Below are positions 39,216-46,127 of a stretch of DNA of 60,612 bases, piece by piece. The stretch is from Desulfurellaceae bacterium. Its GTDB lineage: Bacteria > Desulfobacterota > Binatia > Bin18. A program made the position numbers and the translations under genes. The stretch's first letter is position 1. The number at the start of each line of letters is the position of its first letter. The notes below the pieces were generated by a model, which saw nothing but the letters and a program-made list of their open reading frames with translations, was not told the origin of the DNA and searched no databases. The DNA lies in contig JAGWBB010000009.1 of the NCBI GenBank assembly GCA_021296095.1, positions 4,388 to 64,999 on the forward strand, written 5' to 3'.

Positions 39216-39439
39216 GTCATGGTGCAATGAATAGACGCGGATTTTATACCATTGAGTCGCATGCCGGGACTGCGAGAGACTGCGCGGACAGACTTGCCGC
39301 CTTGATCCAGTCGTGGATGGAAGGGAACGACGCCGACGAGCAGGGGGAAACAATCGCATATCTCATCCATGCTCTGGACGAAGACCGGTTGTCTGACCGT
39401 AAGCTTTTCCCAAGAGAACTGAAAGGCAAGAGCTGGTGA
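39212..39439 (+). CDS. 75-residue hypothetical protein
   Basis: A small acidic protein, GFYTIESHAGTARDCADRL then a helical region ending DEDRLSDRKLFPRELKGKSW. I recall similar short hypothetical proteins with an ALDEDRLS-RKLFP ending but no function for them. It follows a decayed antitoxin (ATGA overlap), and its stop overlaps the GTG start of the TonB receptor frame by four bases. Either ATG (39212 or 39227) could be used; neither has a clear ribosome site. Whether it is a leftover of a toxin-antitoxin locus or an independent gene cannot be told. Confidence 0.5.
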   Translation: MSHGAMNRRGFYTIESHAGTARDCADRLAALIQSWMEGNDADEQGETIAYLIHALDEDRLSDRKLFPRELKGKSW

Positions 39440-41595
39440 GCCGGGTCATCCTGCTACCTGGAGAAAAGTGCCGCGCCGTGCGCCGTCTGTGCGGCTGGGC
39501 GTGGTGTGTCGTCGTGCTGCTGTGGGCGGCAGGTCTGAGCTACGGCCAGGACACAAGCGGCCGGCAAGAAGCCGGGCGGGTGTCCGCCGAGGCAACACAA
39601 CGGATGCCGCTGATCACCGTCACCGAGCGCCGCCCGATCAGCGCGGCTACCGAAACACGCGTGCGCGAAAATGATTTTGCCGTCCGGCCGCATAACACGG
39701 CCTCGGAAATGCTGAATAATCTGCCCGGATTCGTGGCCGGCCAGCACGCCGGGGGCGGCAAAGCCATGCAATACTTCCTGCGCGGTTTTGATAATGACCA
39801 CGGCACTGACGTGGCCATCAGCGTTGACGGTATCCCCGTCAATATGGTCAGCCATGCCCACGGTCAGGGCTATGCCGACCTGAATTTTTTGATCCCCGAA
39901 GTCGTCGAGTCCATTGATTACCGCAAAGGCCCGTATTTTGCGGACTCCGGGAATTTCGCCAACTCGGGCTCGGTCAACTTCATCACCAAAGACGATACTG
40001 TCGAAAATTCGCTCCGCGCCGTGGGCGGGTCGTTCAACACCATGCGCTATGTCGGCATCCTGTCGCCGCGCCTCGGTCCGGTGCAAAGCCTGATTGCCAA
40101 CGAAGTCTACTTCACCGATGGGCCGTCCAAGCACGGCGAGCATTTCGTCAAATATAATTTCTTCGGCAAGTTTACCCTCAGGCCCAACCCACGCTCCAAG
40201 CTGAGTCTGTGGACCTCGCTGTATACCGGCGATTGGGACGCCTCGGGCCAGATCCCGCTCCGAGAGGTCAACAGCGGCCGACTGGACCGCTTCGGTTCGC
40301 TCGACCCGAGCGAGGGCGGACGCTCTGATCGGGAAAACGTGAACCTCATCTACACGGCCACCCCAAGCCTGGAGAAAAGCTGGTCCGTGCAACTCTACTT
40401 CAGCCGCTACCGGCTGCGCATGTTCTCGAATTTTACCTTTTTCAGCGGCGATCCGGTGCGGGGCGATGGCATTGAACAACTCGACACCCGGGTGCTGTTT
40501 GGCGGCCGAGCCCAGTATCGGCGCATGTGGACACTCGGCGGCATGCTGCTTGAGAGCAGCCTTGGTTTTGAGACGCGCAACGATAACGCCGATGTCGGCC
40601 TGTTCCGGCAGCAGCGCCGGCAACGGTTTTCTACCACCCAGAAAGTCGAGGTGTGGGAGAACGCTTTCAGCGGCTACACCCAGCACGAGCTGTTTTTGCG
40701 GGAGTGGCTGCGGTTCATCGTTGGTCTGCGCGGTGACTTCTTTGTCTTTGATGTTGACGGCCGGTCTCGGCCCGGCGCGACAGACGCCCCGCAGCTCCAG
40801 GGAGATGCGACCGACGGCATTGTCAGCCCCAAGGCCAGCCTGATCGTGTCGCCCTTTACCGACCCTGCGAGCCTCTGGCACCAGACCGACCTGTTTCTCA
40901 ATTTTGGCATGGGCTATCATTCCAACGATGCCCGGGACGCGGTCCAGCCGGGGGGCAGCGGGCTGGCTCGCTCAAGCGGTGCGGAAATCGGGGCGCGCAC
41001 CAATCTGTACAATCGGATCGAGTTGGCCGCCTCGCTGTGGTGGCTTGACCTGGGCAGCGAGCTGGTCTTTGTGGGTGACGAGGGCACGACCGAACAGCGC
41101 GGTCCCACCCGCCGCTGGGGCGTGGATGCTGAGGTCCGGGCCGAAGTCTTGCCCTGGCTGCTGCTCGACTATGATCTGACCTATGCCGATCCCCGCTTTC
41201 GCGTCACCGGCGAGGCCATTCCCCTGGCGCCGACCCTGCTGATGAACGGGGGGCTGACGGCCTACCCGGCCGAGAATCTGTCTGCCGCCCTGCGGGTGCG
41301 CTTCCTGGACGACCGGGCCGCCAATGAAGACCGCAGCGTGATTGCGCGGGGTTATAGCCTGATTGACCTGCTCCTGCGTTACCGCTGGCGCAACATTGAG
41401 CTGTCTTTTGATGTACTCAACCTGGCCGACACCGACTGGCGGGAAACGCAGTTTGCCACGGAATCCTGTGTGCGGCGCGAACTCGGCCGAGACAGCCGGT
41501 GTCCGCGCCGCGGTGGCGGACCGGGGATTCTGGACACGAATGTGGTGTCCGGCTACGGCATCAATGTCCGTGGCGGACTGACCGTGTTTTTCTAG
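39436..41595 (+). CDS. TonB-dependent outer-membrane receptor
   Basis: A receptor of up to 719 residues. It shows a signal peptide (best from the GTG at 39478: RRLCGWAWCVVVLLWAAGLSYGQ), a TonB-box-like ITVTE, a plug domain (SEMLNNLPGFVAGQHAGGGKAMQYFLRGFDNDHG), and a C-terminal 22-strand barrel ending in the aromatic pair FF required for insertion. The GTG at 39436 overlaps the preceding ORF; 39478 follows CTGGAGAAAAG and is at least as likely. It imports a scarce ligand using TonB-ExbBD energy, perhaps a metal chelate or cobalamin. No TonB, transporter or Fur-type operator is next to it, so the ligand is open. Confidence 0.88.
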   Translation: MSRVILLPGEKCRAVRRLCGWAWCVVVLLWAAGLSYGQDTSGRQEAGRVSAEATQRMPLITVTERRPISAATETRVRENDFAVRPHNTASEMLNNLPGFVAGQHAGGGKAMQYFLRGFDNDHGTDVAISVDGIPVNMVSHAHGQGYADLNFLIPEVVESIDYRKGPYFADSGNFANSGSVNFITKDDTVENSLRAVGGSFNTMRYVGILSPRLGPVQSLIANEVYFTDGPSKHGEHFVKYNFFGKFTLRPNPRSKLSLWTSLYTGDWDASGQIPLREVNSGRLDRFGSLDPSEGGRSDRENVNLIYTATPSLEKSWSVQLYFSRYRLRMFSNFTFFSGDPVRGDGIEQLDTRVLFGGRAQYRRMWTLGGMLLESSLGFETRNDNADVGLFRQQRRQRFSTTQKVEVWENAFSGYTQHELFLREWLRFIVGLRGDFFVFDVDGRSRPGATDAPQLQGDATDGIVSPKASLIVSPFTDPASLWHQTDLFLNFGMGYHSNDARDAVQPGGSGLARSSGAEIGARTNLYNRIELAASLWWLDLGSELVFVGDEGTTEQRGPTRRWGVDAEVRAEVLPWLLLDYDLTYADPRFRVTGEAIPLAPTLLMNGGLTAYPAENLSAALRVRFLDDRAANEDRSVIARGYSLIDLLLRYRWRNIELSFDVLNLADTDWRETQFATESCVRRELGRDSRCPRRGGGPGILDTNVVSGYGINVRGGLTVFF

Positions 41596-41813: not shown

Positions 41814-44117
41814 ATGTCATTGCGGTCACATCCGGAAGAGCACGTCGCAGCCCTGCAGAATCGGCTCGCCTACACCGAACGTCTCAAACAGCTGATGAAC
41901 CGCATCCACGCGGCCCAAAATATCGACCAGCTGCTGATCAGCCTGCAAGACGACATGCTGACCCTGTTTGAGGCCGAGCATCTCACCCTGTACGCCGTGG
42001 ATTACGACACGCGTGAACTCTACTCCCGGTTTCTGGATCTGGACAGCATCCAGGAAATCCGCCTGGACCTGAACGAGGCCAGCATTGCCGGGTTTGTCGC
42101 CCGCAGCAAACGCACGGTCAATCTGGCCGACGCCTACGATAGTGCCGAGCTGGCCCGTCTCCACCCGGCCCTGCGCTTTGACCGCTCCTGGGACGAAAAA
42201 ACCGGGATTCGGACTCGACAAGTCCTGACGCTTCCGGTGTGTGGTTCGGACGGCGCGTTGACCGGTGTGCTGCAACTGCTCAACAAGACGGGCGCGGCGC
42301 GTTTCTCCCAGGCCGACGAGGAAAAAGTCGGCGAGCTGGCCCGCACGCTGGGCATTGCGTTGCACAACCAGTACCAGCTGGCCAAGCGCCAGCCCCACAA
42401 GTTCGACTCCCTGCTGGCCGCCGGCCTGCTGAGTCAGGACGAGCTGAACGAGGCAAAAGACCGGGCGCGGCAGTCGGGTCGCAGCGTGGAGGCCGTCCTG
42501 CTCGAACGCTACAAGGTCAGCAAACACGAACTCGGCCGCTCGCTGAGCCAGTACTACGGCTGTCCTTTTCTCGAACCCAGCCCGCAGCTGGTGATTGACG
42601 CCGACCTGGCCAGGAAGATCAGCGTCAACTATCTGCAAAGCAACGACTGGCTGCCGCTCCAGGCGACCGATACCAGCGTCGAAATCCTGACCAGCCAGCC
42701 CCACTCGGTCCAGTACCGCCACGATATCCAGCGGCTCTTCCCGGGCCTCAAGATCGCCTACCGGATCGGCCTGGTCGAGGACATCCGCGAAATCAGCCGG
42801 GCTCTGGTCGGCGAACGCGAGCCGGCGGCCGGCGGGGACTCGCTCCAGGCTATTCTGCGCCAGCTGGCGGCGGAATCGCCGACCCACACCCCGACCGACG
42901 AGGGGCCCGACGAGAACGACAGCGCGGTCGTCCGGCTGGTCAACCGCATGATCGGCGAAGCCTATCAGCAGGGCGCCTCGGACATCCACCTCGAACCCTA
43001 TGGCGAGCAGAAAGAAACCCTGATCCGCTTTCGGGTTGACGGCCGCTGTCACGAATACCTCAAGGTTCCGGCCCAGTACCGTCGTCCCCTGGCCTCGCGC
43101 CTCAAGATCATGGCCAACCTCGATATTGCCGAGCGGCGCAAGCCCCAGGACGGCAAGCTCAAGTTCCGTCTGCCGACCAGAGAGATTGAGCTGCGGGTGG
43201 CCACAATTCCGACCGCCGGCACCGACAACGAGGATGTCGCCCTGCGCATTCTGACCGCCGGCGAGGCGCTGCCCCTGGACAAGATTCAGATGGCGGACGC
43301 CAACCTCACAGCCTTTCGAGCCCTGCTCGACAAGCCCTACGGCCTGATCCTGTGCTCGGGTCCGACCGGCTCGGGAAAAACGACCACCCTGCACTCGGCG
43401 CTGGGCGCCATCAATACGCCCGACAGAAAAATCTGGACTGCGGAAGACCCGGTCGAGATCACCCAGTACGGCCTGCGCCAGAGCCAGGTCCAGCCCAGAA
43501 TCGGCTACGACTTTGCCGCAGCCATGCGCTCCTTTTTGCGCGCCGACCCGGACGTCATCATGGTCGGCGAAATCCGGGATCGGGAAACCGCCCGGATCAG
43601 CATCGAGGCGTCCCTGACCGGTCACCTGATCCTGAGCACCGTGCATACCAACAGTGCCGCCGAGACCATCACCCGCCTGCTCGAAATGGACATGGACCCG
43701 TTTCATTTTGCCGACGCCCTGCTCGGCATCCTGGCTCAGCGCCTGGCCCGGACCATCTGTGCGGACTGTAAAGAACCCTACCGGCCGTCCGGGCAGGAGT
43801 ACGAGGCCCTGGCCGCAGGCTATGGTCCGGCCGCGTTCGCCGAGCTGGACCTGCCCGACACCGCCGACTTCGTGCTGTACCGGGGGCGCGGCTGCGAGGC
43901 GTGTCAGCACACCGGATACAAGGGACGCCTGGGGCTGCACGAACTCCTCGTCGCCAGCGATGATATCAAACGCCTGGTCCACAGCCGCGCCACCGCTGCC
44001 GAACTCCGCCAGGTCGCGCTGGCCCAGGGCATGACCACCCTGGTTCAGGACGGCATTCGCAAAGTCCTCCAGGGCTGGACCGATTACAGCCAGGTACGGG
44101 CGGTGGCCCTACGCTAG
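41814..44117 (+). CDS. GAF-MshEN-PilB/GspE-type secretion ATPase
   Basis: A 767-residue protein in three parts. Residues about 20-185 form a GAF sensor domain (AEHLTLYAVDYDTRELYSRF). Residues about 196-300 look like an MshEN/GspE N-terminal domain (LLSQDELNEAKDRARQSGRSVEAVLLER), which binds cyclic di-GMP in some proteins, although the usual RLG start is RSV here. The rest is the type II/IV motor ATPase: Walker A GPTGSGKTTT near 517-526, Walker B region PDVIMVGEIRD near 575-585, and a zinc knuckle of CADC (about 649) and CEAC (about 693). It would power pilus or secretion-type assembly. It is an orphan with no pil or gsp genes nearby. CAGGAGGC precedes the start. Confidence 0.88.
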   Translation: MSLRSHPEEHVAALQNRLAYTERLKQLMNRIHAAQNIDQLLISLQDDMLTLFEAEHLTLYAVDYDTRELYSRFLDLDSIQEIRLDLNEASIAGFVARSKRTVNLADAYDSAELARLHPALRFDRSWDEKTGIRTRQVLTLPVCGSDGALTGVLQLLNKTGAARFSQADEEKVGELARTLGIALHNQYQLAKRQPHKFDSLLAAGLLSQDELNEAKDRARQSGRSVEAVLLERYKVSKHELGRSLSQYYGCPFLEPSPQLVIDADLARKISVNYLQSNDWLPLQATDTSVEILTSQPHSVQYRHDIQRLFPGLKIAYRIGLVEDIREISRALVGEREPAAGGDSLQAILRQLAAESPTHTPTDEGPDENDSAVVRLVNRMIGEAYQQGASDIHLEPYGEQKETLIRFRVDGRCHEYLKVPAQYRRPLASRLKIMANLDIAERRKPQDGKLKFRLPTREIELRVATIPTAGTDNEDVALRILTAGEALPLDKIQMADANLTAFRALLDKPYGLILCSGPTGSGKTTTLHSALGAINTPDRKIWTAEDPVEITQYGLRQSQVQPRIGYDFAAAMRSFLRADPDVIMVGEIRDRETARISIEASLTGHLILSTVHTNSAAETITRLLEMDMDPFHFADALLGILAQRLARTICADCKEPYRPSGQEYEALAAGYGPAAFAELDLPDTADFVLYRGRGCEACQHTGYKGRLGLHELLVASDDIKRLVHSRATAAELRQVALAQGMTTLVQDGIRKVLQGWTDYSQVRAVALR

Positions 44118-44339: not shown

Positions 44340-46127
44340 ATGAGAAATACCGGTAGGACCTGTTCGGTGGGGCTGGGTGTGGGCATCCTGTTCAGTCTGC
44401 TCGCCTCTTCGGCCTGGGCGATCTTTGTCGACGAGGCCGAGACCATTCGCTTCAACGGCCGGATGTATAACCGGACGGCCATGGCGGTCGAGAGCGCGGC
44501 CGACAACACCCGCATTCAGACGCCGTATAACAGCTGGAACATGCTGCAAAACCGGACCTTCGTTCAGATGGAGCTGCGTCACAACCTGACCGATCTGATC
44601 ATGGGCCGGTCTGACGGTCCGCTGGCTGCGGTCCAGTCCCTGCTGAGTCCCCTGGGCTTTCTGGCGCCCGACGATTTCGAGTATTTCGTGACCTATCGCG
44701 GCGAGTACGACGGGGTGTGGGACTTTGGCCCGGACGTGTTCAGCGAGCGCTTTCCGCTGCTGAGCGACTGCGGACCGGCGAGCAAGGTCAAACAGAAACA
44801 GCCCCAGGCCTTCGGCTGTAGCCAGGTCGATACGCGCCGACGCCGGCGCAGTCGGCACCGGCTGTTTGAGGCCTATATCAACTATACCAAGGGGCCCCTG
44901 TTTGTCCGCCTCGGCCGCCAGAACCTGTCGTGGGGCGAGACCGACGTGTTCCGCCTGATGGATCAGATCAATCCCCTGGACGCCAGCTTTGGCGGCTTTC
45001 TGGTCACCCTGGACGAGCGGCGCATCCCGCTCGACATGCTGCGGGTGGTGTACGGCCTGGGCGGTGTCGGGCCGCTGTCGGAACTCAACCTGGAGGGCTT
45101 TATGGTCGTGGACGACGAGGTCTCCACGCCCACCCCGGCCGGTTCGCCGTGGTCCACGCCCAACCCGGCCGGTATTCGGTCTGCCCTCAAAAAACCGGCC
45201 CGCAATTTCACCGACCTGCGGGGCGGTGGACGCGTCGTCGGCGTGTGGGGCGATTTCATGTTCACCGTGGCCCACTACTACACCTATCTCGACGGGGCGA
45301 CAGGCCGCGTGGTTACCCCGACCGGCGATTCGCCGCTCAGGCTCAGCGAGTTCCGCGAGGCGGGTCGGCAGGGTGAAGTCGGGCGCTACCTGTTTGATAA
45401 TTTTCAGACCAATATCCTGTTTCCCAAGGTCCAGATCAGCGGGGCAAGCCTGACCTTTGGTCTGCCCAGCCTGTCGGCCATCGTGCGCAGCGAGTTTGCC
45501 TACTTCTACGCCGAGCCGTTTTTCAAGAACGCGTCCCCGACTCAGCTGCTCGGGCCGATTGCCGACCCGGACAACTTTGCCCTCACCCCCGGTTACAGCC
45601 AGGTCGCCTGTCCGTCCTCGGTCAGCAACGACGTGTGCCTGCGCTACAAGAGCGACATCGACCGCTCAGACGTGATCCGCTGGGCGGTGGGTATGGACAT
45701 GGACCGCTATATCCAGCTGCTCAATCCCCAGCAGTCGTTTGTGCTCAGCGGTCAGATTTTCGGCACCCATATTCTGGACTTTAACGATACCAAGCTCAGC
45801 TCGGTCAGAGACAGCTTCGGCTTTGGCCACTTCGCCGTTCCGGTTCTCGATCCGAACCGAAGGAATACGTCCTTTGTGAACATGGACCAGCATCAGCTGA
45901 TCAATACCCTGTCCATCTCAACCGCTTACCGCTCGGGCGCGATCTCGCCGGCCCTGGTCTTCCTATACGACTGGCAGGGCGCGTGGCTGGTGCAGCCGGG
46001 CATTACCTTTACCCGCGACCCGTTCCGTTTCATTATCCAGTACAACTACATCGACGGACAGTATAACGGCATCGGCTTTTTACGTGACCGCGACAACCTG
46101 ATCGTGCAGCTCGAGGTGGTCATCTGA
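44340..46127 (+). CDS. DUF1302 family outer-membrane barrel
   Basis: A 595-residue protein with a signal peptide (to about residue 27, SSAWA) and then a long beta-barrel pattern. FNGRMYNRTA, LRHNLTDL and the typical RLGRQNLSWGETDVFRLMDQINPLD block identify DUF1302; the last residues RDNLIVQLEVVI match an outer-membrane terminal strand. DUF1302 proteins are thought to be porin-like or adhesin-like and are often linked to hydrocarbon, steroid or lipid use together with DUF1329 proteins. The next gene, an HpaB-like enzyme, starts 16 bases later, so the pair is one transcript and the barrel may admit that enzyme's substrate (inference). Confidence 0.8.
   Translation: MRNTGRTCSVGLGVGILFSLLASSAWAIFVDEAETIRFNGRMYNRTAMAVESAADNTRIQTPYNSWNMLQNRTFVQMELRHNLTDLIMGRSDGPLAAVQSLLSPLGFLAPDDFEYFVTYRGEYDGVWDFGPDVFSERFPLLSDCGPASKVKQKQPQAFGCSQVDTRRRRRSRHRLFEAYINYTKGPLFVRLGRQNLSWGETDVFRLMDQINPLDASFGGFLVTLDERRIPLDMLRVVYGLGGVGPLSELNLEGFMVVDDEVSTPTPAGSPWSTPNPAGIRSALKKPARNFTDLRGGGRVVGVWGDFMFTVAHYYTYLDGATGRVVTPTGDSPLRLSEFREAGRQGEVGRYLFDNFQTNILFPKVQISGASLTFGLPSLSAIVRSEFAYFYAEPFFKNASPTQLLGPIADPDNFALTPGYSQVACPSSVSNDVCLRYKSDIDRSDVIRWAVGMDMDRYIQLLNPQQSFVLSGQIFGTHILDFNDTKLSSVRDSFGFGHFAVPVLDPNRRNTSFVNMDQHQLINTLSISTAYRSGAISPALVFLYDWQGAWLVQPGITFTRDPFRFIIQYNYIDGQYNGIGFLRDRDNLIVQLEVVI

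Follow-up and report, generated by a model that had tools for sequence, protein, structure and literature searches.

A PilB-type ATPase with an N-terminal GAF domain, a putative type IVa pilus motor in a Desulfurellaceae bacterium

The GAF motor gene and its conservation

The window analysed here is a stretch of 60,612 nucleotides from a Desulfurellaceae bacterium (GenBank assembly GCA_021296095.1, contig JAGWBB010000009.1, positions 4,388 to 64,999 of the forward strand). Positions 41814-44117 of its plus strand hold an intact open reading frame (ORF) of 767 codons, from ATG to stop, as established by ORF call and translation. The ORF encodes a PilB-type ATPase with an N-terminal GAF domain and a degenerate MshEN region, in the following denoted as the GAF motor. 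The gene consists of the following features, where dN/dS is the ratio of nonsynonymous to synonymous substitution rates, c-di-GMP is cyclic di-GMP, and the counts refer to the 32 homologues described below.

41814..44117, plus strand: GAF-MshEN-PilB-type ATPase gene, 767 amino acids (ORF; Pfam GAF, MshEN and T2SSE above cut-offs; dN/dS 0.11-0.18)
41925..42362, plus strand: GAF domain of the phosphodiesterase (PDE) type, residues 38-183 (Pfam PF01590, 32.4 bits against a cut-off of 22.4; CyaB2 and PDE10A nearest; GAF-only model)
42282..42320, plus strand: NKFDE motif, residues 157-169 (N157, K158, F164, D168, E169; alignment)
42396..42554, plus strand: degenerate 53-residue c-di-GMP part of MshEN, residues 195-247 (alignment; under the NF053729 cut-off)
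42555..42818, plus strand: C-terminal subdomain of MshEN, residues 248-335 (Pfam PF05157, 37.8 bits against a cut-off of 23.1, the second half of the domain)
42912..44096, plus strand: T2SSE/PilB-type ATPase core, residues 367-761 (Pfam PF00437, 412.7 bits; phmmer against structures)
43359..43385, plus strand: Walker A, residues 516-524 (identical in 32/32)
43551..43580, plus strand: Walker B stretch DVIMVGEIRD, residues 580-589 (8 of 10 positions invariant in 32/32)
43620..43652, plus strand: His box, residues 603-613 (8 of 11 positions invariant in 32/32)
43758..43769, plus strand: first CxxC of the metal-binding tetracysteine motif, residues 649-652 (both Cys in 32/32)
43893..43904, plus strand: second CxxC of the tetracysteine motif, residues 694-697 (both Cys in 32/32)

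Relatives were compared within a panel of 18 genomes (G000-G016 and G050, with G000 the genome of the window) and within a wider sample of the phylum. The alignment comprises 32 GAF-bearing homologues, 12 from the panel and 20 from the wider phylum; the protein of G009, which is split over two contigs, was excluded, and two gammaproteobacterial homologues were scored separately. By its Pfam score and its motifs, which are kept across the 32 homologues, the motor belongs to the T2SSE superfamily. Walker A and the four cysteines of the tetracysteine motif are invariant, while Walker B and what we take to be the Asp and His boxes are mostly so. Among solved structures the core is nearest to PilF/PilB and GspE (phmmer). 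The protein stays below the cut-offs of both equivalog models, with 482.3 bits for PilB (TIGR02538, cut-off 675.65) and 472.3 bits for GspE (TIGR02533, cut-off 630.25).

Judged by dN/dS, the gene is under purifying selection: across three pairs the ratio is 0.11-0.18 for the whole gene, 0.12-0.19 for the GAF domain and 0.19-0.35 for the N-terminal part of MshEN. Mean pairwise identity within the family is 51% for GAF, 40% for the N-terminal part of MshEN and 66% for the ATPase. The sister genome G001, of the same genus, harbors a 95% identical orthologue and retains the downstream neighbours, which together with the low dN/dS argues that the gene is not a chance ORF. Its full-length AlphaFold model (predicted local distance difference test, pLDDT, 61.6) serves as a rough check only; for the fold we rely on a model of the GAF domain alone (pLDDT 86).

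The MshEN region, the GAF domain and candidate ligands

The MshEN receptor for c-di-GMP is described, in the available part of Wang et al. 2016 (PMC5013675), as two motifs of the form RLGxx(LVI)(LVI)xxG(LVI)(LVI)xxxxLxxxLxxQ. Residues 195-247 of the motor keep the spacing of this unit, with HKF...A and SVE...Y in place of RLG...Q. The 53-residue part reaches 22.3 bits against a cut-off of 38 (NCBIfam NF053729), and its best motif score is 11 of 22, within the range of 100 shuffles (mean 9.74, maximum 12), so that the region does not qualify as an MshEN receptor. For comparison, the canonical PilB proteins of G016 and G005 score 17, and the PilB of G050 and the GspE of the window's genome 14 each. 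The glycine (G3) and the final glutamine (Q24) are retained in none of the 32 homologues in either motif, the arginine position (R or K) in 1/32 for the first and 0/32 for the second motif, and the first leucine in 0/32 and 3/32, respectively. The two gammaproteobacterial homologues likewise lack these contact residues. By alignment, the c-di-GMP contacts of the MshEN part are lost across the GAF-bearing family. The degenerate RLG start remarked upon in an earlier note, made from the letters of this DNA alone, is thereby confirmed and extends to all relatives aligned; the GAF domain named there is confirmed as well, by the Pfam match over cut-off and by a confident fold model, with structural Z scores of up to 19.9.

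The same note had called such a way of gating a motor uncommon, which is not borne out. A search with the N-terminal half as query (1e-20 or better) returned matches in 60 of 297 sampled genomes of the phylum, 54 of them across the GAF part and 6 in the MshEN part only. Fifty-one of the GAF-covering matches lie in frames of 763-987 amino acids, the remaining three (G134, G190, G301) in frames of 199-341. More distant full-length homologues (41%) exist in Gammaproteobacteria. In the tree the GAF motors form one clade (support 100/100). The panel contains 13 genomes with a GAF motor, one with a swapped form (G050), three with remnants (G002, G010, G013) and one, G003, in which none was found. 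G004 additionally holds a second member of this motor family, whose sequence runs over two frames (L057, 7469-9907).

The swapped form of G050 is 60% identical to the motor from residue 189 on and carries two MshEN repeat pairs at the site of the GAF domain. The better pair scores 18 of 22 (PLG...Q, KLG...Q) and is near-canonical. Because the protein nests within the GAF clade (support of 98/100 at the fork shared with G016), the GAF domain has probably been replaced by tandem MshEN motifs in this lineage. A response-regulator receiver domain (REC) takes the N-terminal place in a separate clade of PilB-type ATPases (100/100), found in G003, G005, G026 and G039 (loci L126, 1186-3384, and L127, 2151-4442, by Pfam; L131 and L132 by eye). 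The REC-fused motor is the only PilB-type ATPase besides GspE in G003.

The nearest solved GAF sequences are those of the Anabaena cyclase CyaB2 (1ykd, 2.8e-20) and of PDE10A (2zmf, 3.4e-13), both of which bind cyclic AMP (cAMP), followed by the HD-GYP protein 4mcw and by PDE2/5/6. The NKFDE motif, conserved in GAF domains that bind cyclic mononucleotides according to the available parts of PMC4411481 and PMC11977230, is complete in 10 of the 32 homologues, including the protein of the window; its single positions are kept in 32/32 (N), 25/32 (K), 32/32 (F), 28/32 (D) and 17/32 (E). By sequence, the GAF domain of the motor is of the PDE type. The contact residues given for CyaB2 GAF-b in the accessible text of PMC4411481, namely R291, T293, I308, D356 and N359, correspond in a pairwise alignment to H56, T58, F73, D127 and T130, two identical and three substituted. 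Across the family the Asp356 position (the pocket Asp) is Asp in 32/32, the Thr293 position Thr in 28/32 and the Arg291 position Arg in 19/32. The two gammaproteobacterial homologues have neither the pocket Asp nor the K of NKFDE. Compared with solved GAF structures, the model gives Z scores of 19.9 and 19.8 for ptsP GAF domains, 18.3 for PDE10A and the cAMP-bound Lcd1 domain, and 18.0 for PDE5 and 4mcw; these values are close together and the fold therefore singles out no ligand.

As to the messengers, the window's genome gave no GGDEF match and five matches to class III cyclase domains, which argues for a cyclic mononucleotide as ligand. In all, twelve of the 18 panel genomes, including 9 of the 13 GAF bearers, are without a GGDEF match, and the swapped genome G050 has two. 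In an early sample of 7 genomes GGDEF matches were confined to the swapped genome, and we considered that a lack of c-di-GMP explains the family; a set of 80 genomes broke this pattern. Since many genomes of the family have GGDEF proteins, the absence of c-di-GMP is no precondition. Class III cyclase matches occur in 18/18 panel genomes; they are most numerous at 106 in G003 and 57 in G006, many in frames of about 1100 amino acids. Two cyclases of the window's genome were inspected for what we take to be the catalytic motif of the class: L212 keeps both metal-binding Asp and the Asn/Arg pair, L211 is without the Asn.

Pilus genes and ATPases in the genome and its relatives

The window belongs to a metagenome-assembled genome (96.9% complete), the pilus inventory of which covered PilM, PilN, PilO, PilP, PilQ, PilC, PilB-like ATPases and PilT. 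Contig C6 carries pilMNOPQ beside aroK-aroB, with PilM, PilO and PilQ (over the TIGR02515 cut-off) as well as PilN and PilP (by tblastn). A platform protein on contig C7 scores 467.5 bits for PilC (cut-off 700) and 375 for GspF (cut-off 424), another on contig C98 is nearest to the GspF model (410.8 bits, cut-off 424). Both are below cut-off and were named PilC and GspF, respectively, by best fit to models or relatives. Contig C98, which holds the type II secretion system (T2SS), contains gspF, gspL and part of gspD; gspE was not found on it.

A T2SSE profile search of the genome returned three proteins above cut-off: the GAF motor and one ATPase each on C1 and C6, so that the motor is not the sole PilB homologue, a question that the earlier note had raised. 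The C1 ATPase reaches 647.5 bits for GspE (cut-off 630.25) and 601.9 for PilB (cut-off 675.65), and groups with the gspF-adjacent GspEs of G016 and G050 (100/99); on both grounds it was rejected as the canonical PilB. The C6 ATPase is followed by two T2SSF-family genes and is named TadA-like from this gene order. A canonical PilB was not found by this search. With pilMNOPQ and pilC present (the latter nearest to PilC models) and no other PilB candidate, the motor most likely drives a dispersed type IVa pilus, and an orphan in the functional sense, as the earlier note had it, is not supported. No match over the TIGR01420 cut-off for PilT/PilU was found in G000 and G001, the two genomes of the window's genus, while the other 16 panel genomes have one; judging from this search, the pilus of the genus may lack a dedicated retraction motor.

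Within the panel, a pilus-type PilC occurs in 15 of 18 genomes, namely in all 14 with a GAF motor or its swapped form and in G003; it was not found in G002, G010 and G013, where no search for PilC remnants was made. Strong PilM matches (>100 bits) exist in 11 genomes (all except G001, G002, G003, G004, G007, G010, G013). PilQ is matched closely (at least 58%) in 10 genomes and less well in G050, and is a remnant in G002, G010 and G013. In G016, G050 and G005 a C7-type PilC immediately follows a canonical PilB, and the PilB proteins of G016 and G050 pass the cut-off. In nine genomes with PilC and GAF motor (G000, G001, G006, G007, G009, G011, G012, G014, G015) GspE was the single further PilB-type ATPase found, which makes the GAF motor the only candidate for a pilus extension ATPase there. 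This GspE is lepA-linked wherever the contig reached lepA; in G009 and G012 contig ends split or truncate it. G004 and G008 each have one more ATPase, which belongs to a third type (the two are 81% identical) and in G008 lies beside its own platform and pseudopilin.

The three remnant genomes have lost both parts. Of pilMNOPQ, G002, G010 and G013 retain only the first ~50 codons of pilM and ~196 codons of pilQ; of the GAF motor, fragments are left at the expected site between an acyl-CoA synthetase and an amidohydrolase gene. GspE is intact in all three, and G002 also keeps its T2SS locus. The motor and pil loci are more than 0.5 Mb apart in G007 and G015. We had counted three independent co-losses; as the breakpoints are shared at both loci, the count was lowered to about one event. 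Despite these shared breakpoints, a concatenated gene tree interleaves the remnant genomes with intact ones, which suggests recombination among relatives or a wrong tree. The remnant loci (L207, L208, L209 for the motor; L201, L202, L203 for pilMNOPQ) thus belong to three genomes that are not one clade on that tree.

The location of the motor gene is less telling. In the window it is flanked by two genes:

39436-41595: TonB-receptor Plug protein
44340-46127: DUF1302 protein

It is adjacent neither to pilC, which is on C7, nor to pilT. The earlier note was right in that the gene stands alone between the two; this isolation is nevertheless nothing special here, since GspE is displaced too, beside lepA. 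We compared 36 neighbourhoods (the window, 13 panel, 20 phylum and 2 gammaproteobacterial) of up to ~10 kb per side, less where a contig ended, using queries for pil, gsp and chemosensory genes taken from this group, which can miss divergent small pil genes. Single receiver domains aside, 33 of the 36 have no such gene near the motor. The motor of G009 shares its contig with T2SS genes and lies ~7 kb from gspF. The gammaproteobacterial motor of L036 follows a gene for a methyl-accepting chemotaxis protein (MCP) and a CheA-like hybrid with Hpt, HATPase, CheW and REC domains, a locus we infer to be a Chp-type pilus chemosensory operon. In the phylum homologue L181, pilC is convergent with the motor at a distance of 44 bases. 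The loci L036 and L181 both support an association with the pilus. Recurrent neighbours of the motor in several genomes are genes judged by eye to encode an acyl-CoA synthetase and an amidohydrolase; elsewhere the neighbours are varied and mostly housekeeping-like, and a functional link to them was discarded. Several phylum genomes have a small ORF of ~84-110 amino acids immediately upstream of the motor gene (L175_9, L178_8, L180_10, L183_7, L192_8, L193_10); in the window it was not called.

Interpretation and comparison with known systems

We propose that the GAF motor is a PilB-type ATPase of a distinct subfamily that would extend the pilus of a dispersed type IVa system. Allosteric input would come from the N-terminal GAF domain rather than from a functional MshEN motif that binds c-di-GMP, and the ligand of the domain would most likely be a cyclic mononucleotide, cAMP or cyclic GMP (cGMP). 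The pilus role is supported by the other PilB-like ATPases of the genome being GspE and TadA-like, by PilC tracking the motor, and by the co-decay with pilMNOPQ. An input gated by cyclic mononucleotides is supported by the loss of the c-di-GMP contacts in 32/32, the complete NKFDE, the pocket Asp in 32/32 and the nearest GAF domains being of this type. From these sequence comparisons we infer that the motor works with PilC, that its GAF domain gates it, what the ligand is and in which direction the motor responds. That the motor drives the type IVa pilus appears likely, and that the GAF domain gates it slightly more so; the whole, in which a GAF-gated motor extends a type IVa pilus and the ligand is probably a cyclic mononucleotide, we consider moderately probable. 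For cAMP or cGMP as the actual ligand the chances fall somewhat short of even. The most specific version, a motor switched directly by cAMP or cGMP on its own GAF domain, with no detectable diguanylate cyclases or, in the genus, PilT, is rather doubtful. As for the suggestion in the earlier note that GAF control replaces c-di-GMP control, it is strengthened by the lost contacts, the exchange in G050 and the window's genome being without a GGDEF match; many genomes with a GAF motor do have GGDEF proteins, so that a lack of c-di-GMP is not required.

A number of observations weigh against this proposal. The PilC and GspF of the window's genome are both under their NCBIfam cut-offs. Close PilQ matches were not found in G001, G003, G005 and G016, nor strong PilM matches in G001, G003, G004 and G007. 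G005, G016 and G050 have both PilB and a member of the GAF-motor family, and G004 and G008 a further PilB-like ATPase, so that the GAF motor may be an extra in these five genomes. In G003 (88% complete), which has PilC, GspE and the REC-fused motor, the GAF motor was not found despite the PilC, nor was a PilB; the REC motor may stand in for the GAF motor in this genome. The co-decay is weakened by breakpoints common to the remnant genomes at both loci (the motor deletion of G013 is larger). G007 has lost pilM-pilP and keeps pilQ, pilC, pilA and an intact GAF motor, while in G010 and G013 GspE and PilT persist although an intact pil operon, a pilus-type pilC and a T2SS platform were not found; motors can thus outlive their machines. 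Concerning the input, GGDEF matches occur in 4 of 13 panel bearers (G004, G005, G008, G011) and in 22/22 phylum bearers tested. The protein of the window has His at the Arg291 and Phe at the Ile308 position of CyaB2, by fold alone ptsP GAFs are the best match (Z 19.9), and for 4mcw, a close structural match, we know of no ligand. GAF ligands are not confidently readable from sequence.

The latter points bear on the most serious alternative, in which the motor has the same role and the GAF domain binds another small molecule, or dimerises or docks a partner such as a chemosensory protein. We regard this as about as probable as binding of cAMP or cGMP, that is, as a real possibility a little below even. 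It agrees with His and Phe at two of the CyaB2 contact positions, with the ptsP GAF as best fold match, and with the gammaproteobacterial homologues that lack pocket Asp and NKFDE lysine, one of them beside chemosensory genes. A precedent is Dcsbis, whose PDE-like GAF binds neither cAMP nor cGMP according to the available part of PMC4937426. The NKFDE motif is, however, degenerate in Dcsbis and complete in the GAF of the motor, the family keeps the pocket Asp in 32/32 and the PDE-type loop, and all 18 panel genomes have class III cyclase matches.

Two further readings assign the motor to another machine or to none, and we consider both improbable, to a similar degree. An accessory or alternative type II secretion ATPase, or one shared between systems, is suggested by the family lying outside both equivalog cut-offs and by the motor of G009 near gspF on a T2SS contig; the window's genome, however, has its own GspE over cut-off, grouping with gspF-adjacent GspEs, and G002 lost the motor along with the pil operon while keeping T2SS locus and GspE. 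An orphan motor without pilus partner, kept for some other membrane or DNA-uptake function, fits the 33/36 neighbourhoods without pil or gsp gene and the retained motor of G007. It sits poorly with the pilus-type PilC in 14/14 panel genomes with motor or swapped form, and with the decay of the motor where this PilC is gone and pilQ is cut.

If the most specific version held, a mononucleotide messenger would control pilus dynamics at the post-translational level through one motor, and GAF, MshEN and perhaps REC would be interchangeable input modules on PilB-type motors in evolution. To our knowledge, direct second-messenger control of PilB-type motors is known only via c-di-GMP and MshEN. A widespread motor subfamily without c-di-GMP contacts and with a PDE-type GAF would be a second input route, and the probable exchange of GAF for MshEN in G050 shows where inputs plug into the motor. 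A literature search, based on titles and beginnings of abstracts and with most subscription journals outside its coverage, yielded no recognisable description of a GAF-PilB fusion.

Among known systems, the GAF motor shares with PilB (TIGR02538) the MshEN-type N-domain, the T2SSE core, Walker A and B, the Asp and His boxes and the tetracysteine motif, and PilF/PilB are its best relatives in the PDB. It differs in the N-terminal GAF domain, the degenerate c-di-GMP motif, the missing adjacency to pilC or pilT and a score below the equivalog cut-off, and GAF motors form a clade of their own (100/100). With MshE of Vibrio cholerae and other MshEN receptors it has the domain position and the 53-residue unit spacing in common, whereas the R, L, G and Q contacts of the motif, as given in the available part of PMC5013675, are lost in both of its copies. 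The GAF domains of CyaB2 and PDE2/5/6/10, its closest solved sequences, share NKFDE and the signatures IAG..A....VN..DAY and D..TG..T; in contrast to these, the GAF domain of the motor is single, has an insert between DAY and RFD, and has a secretion-type motor as output where the others have a cyclase or phosphodiesterase. The REC-fused PilB-type ATPases, finally, show the same arrangement of signalling domain, MshEN region and PilB-type ATPase, with REC in place of GAF and in a separate clade (100/100).

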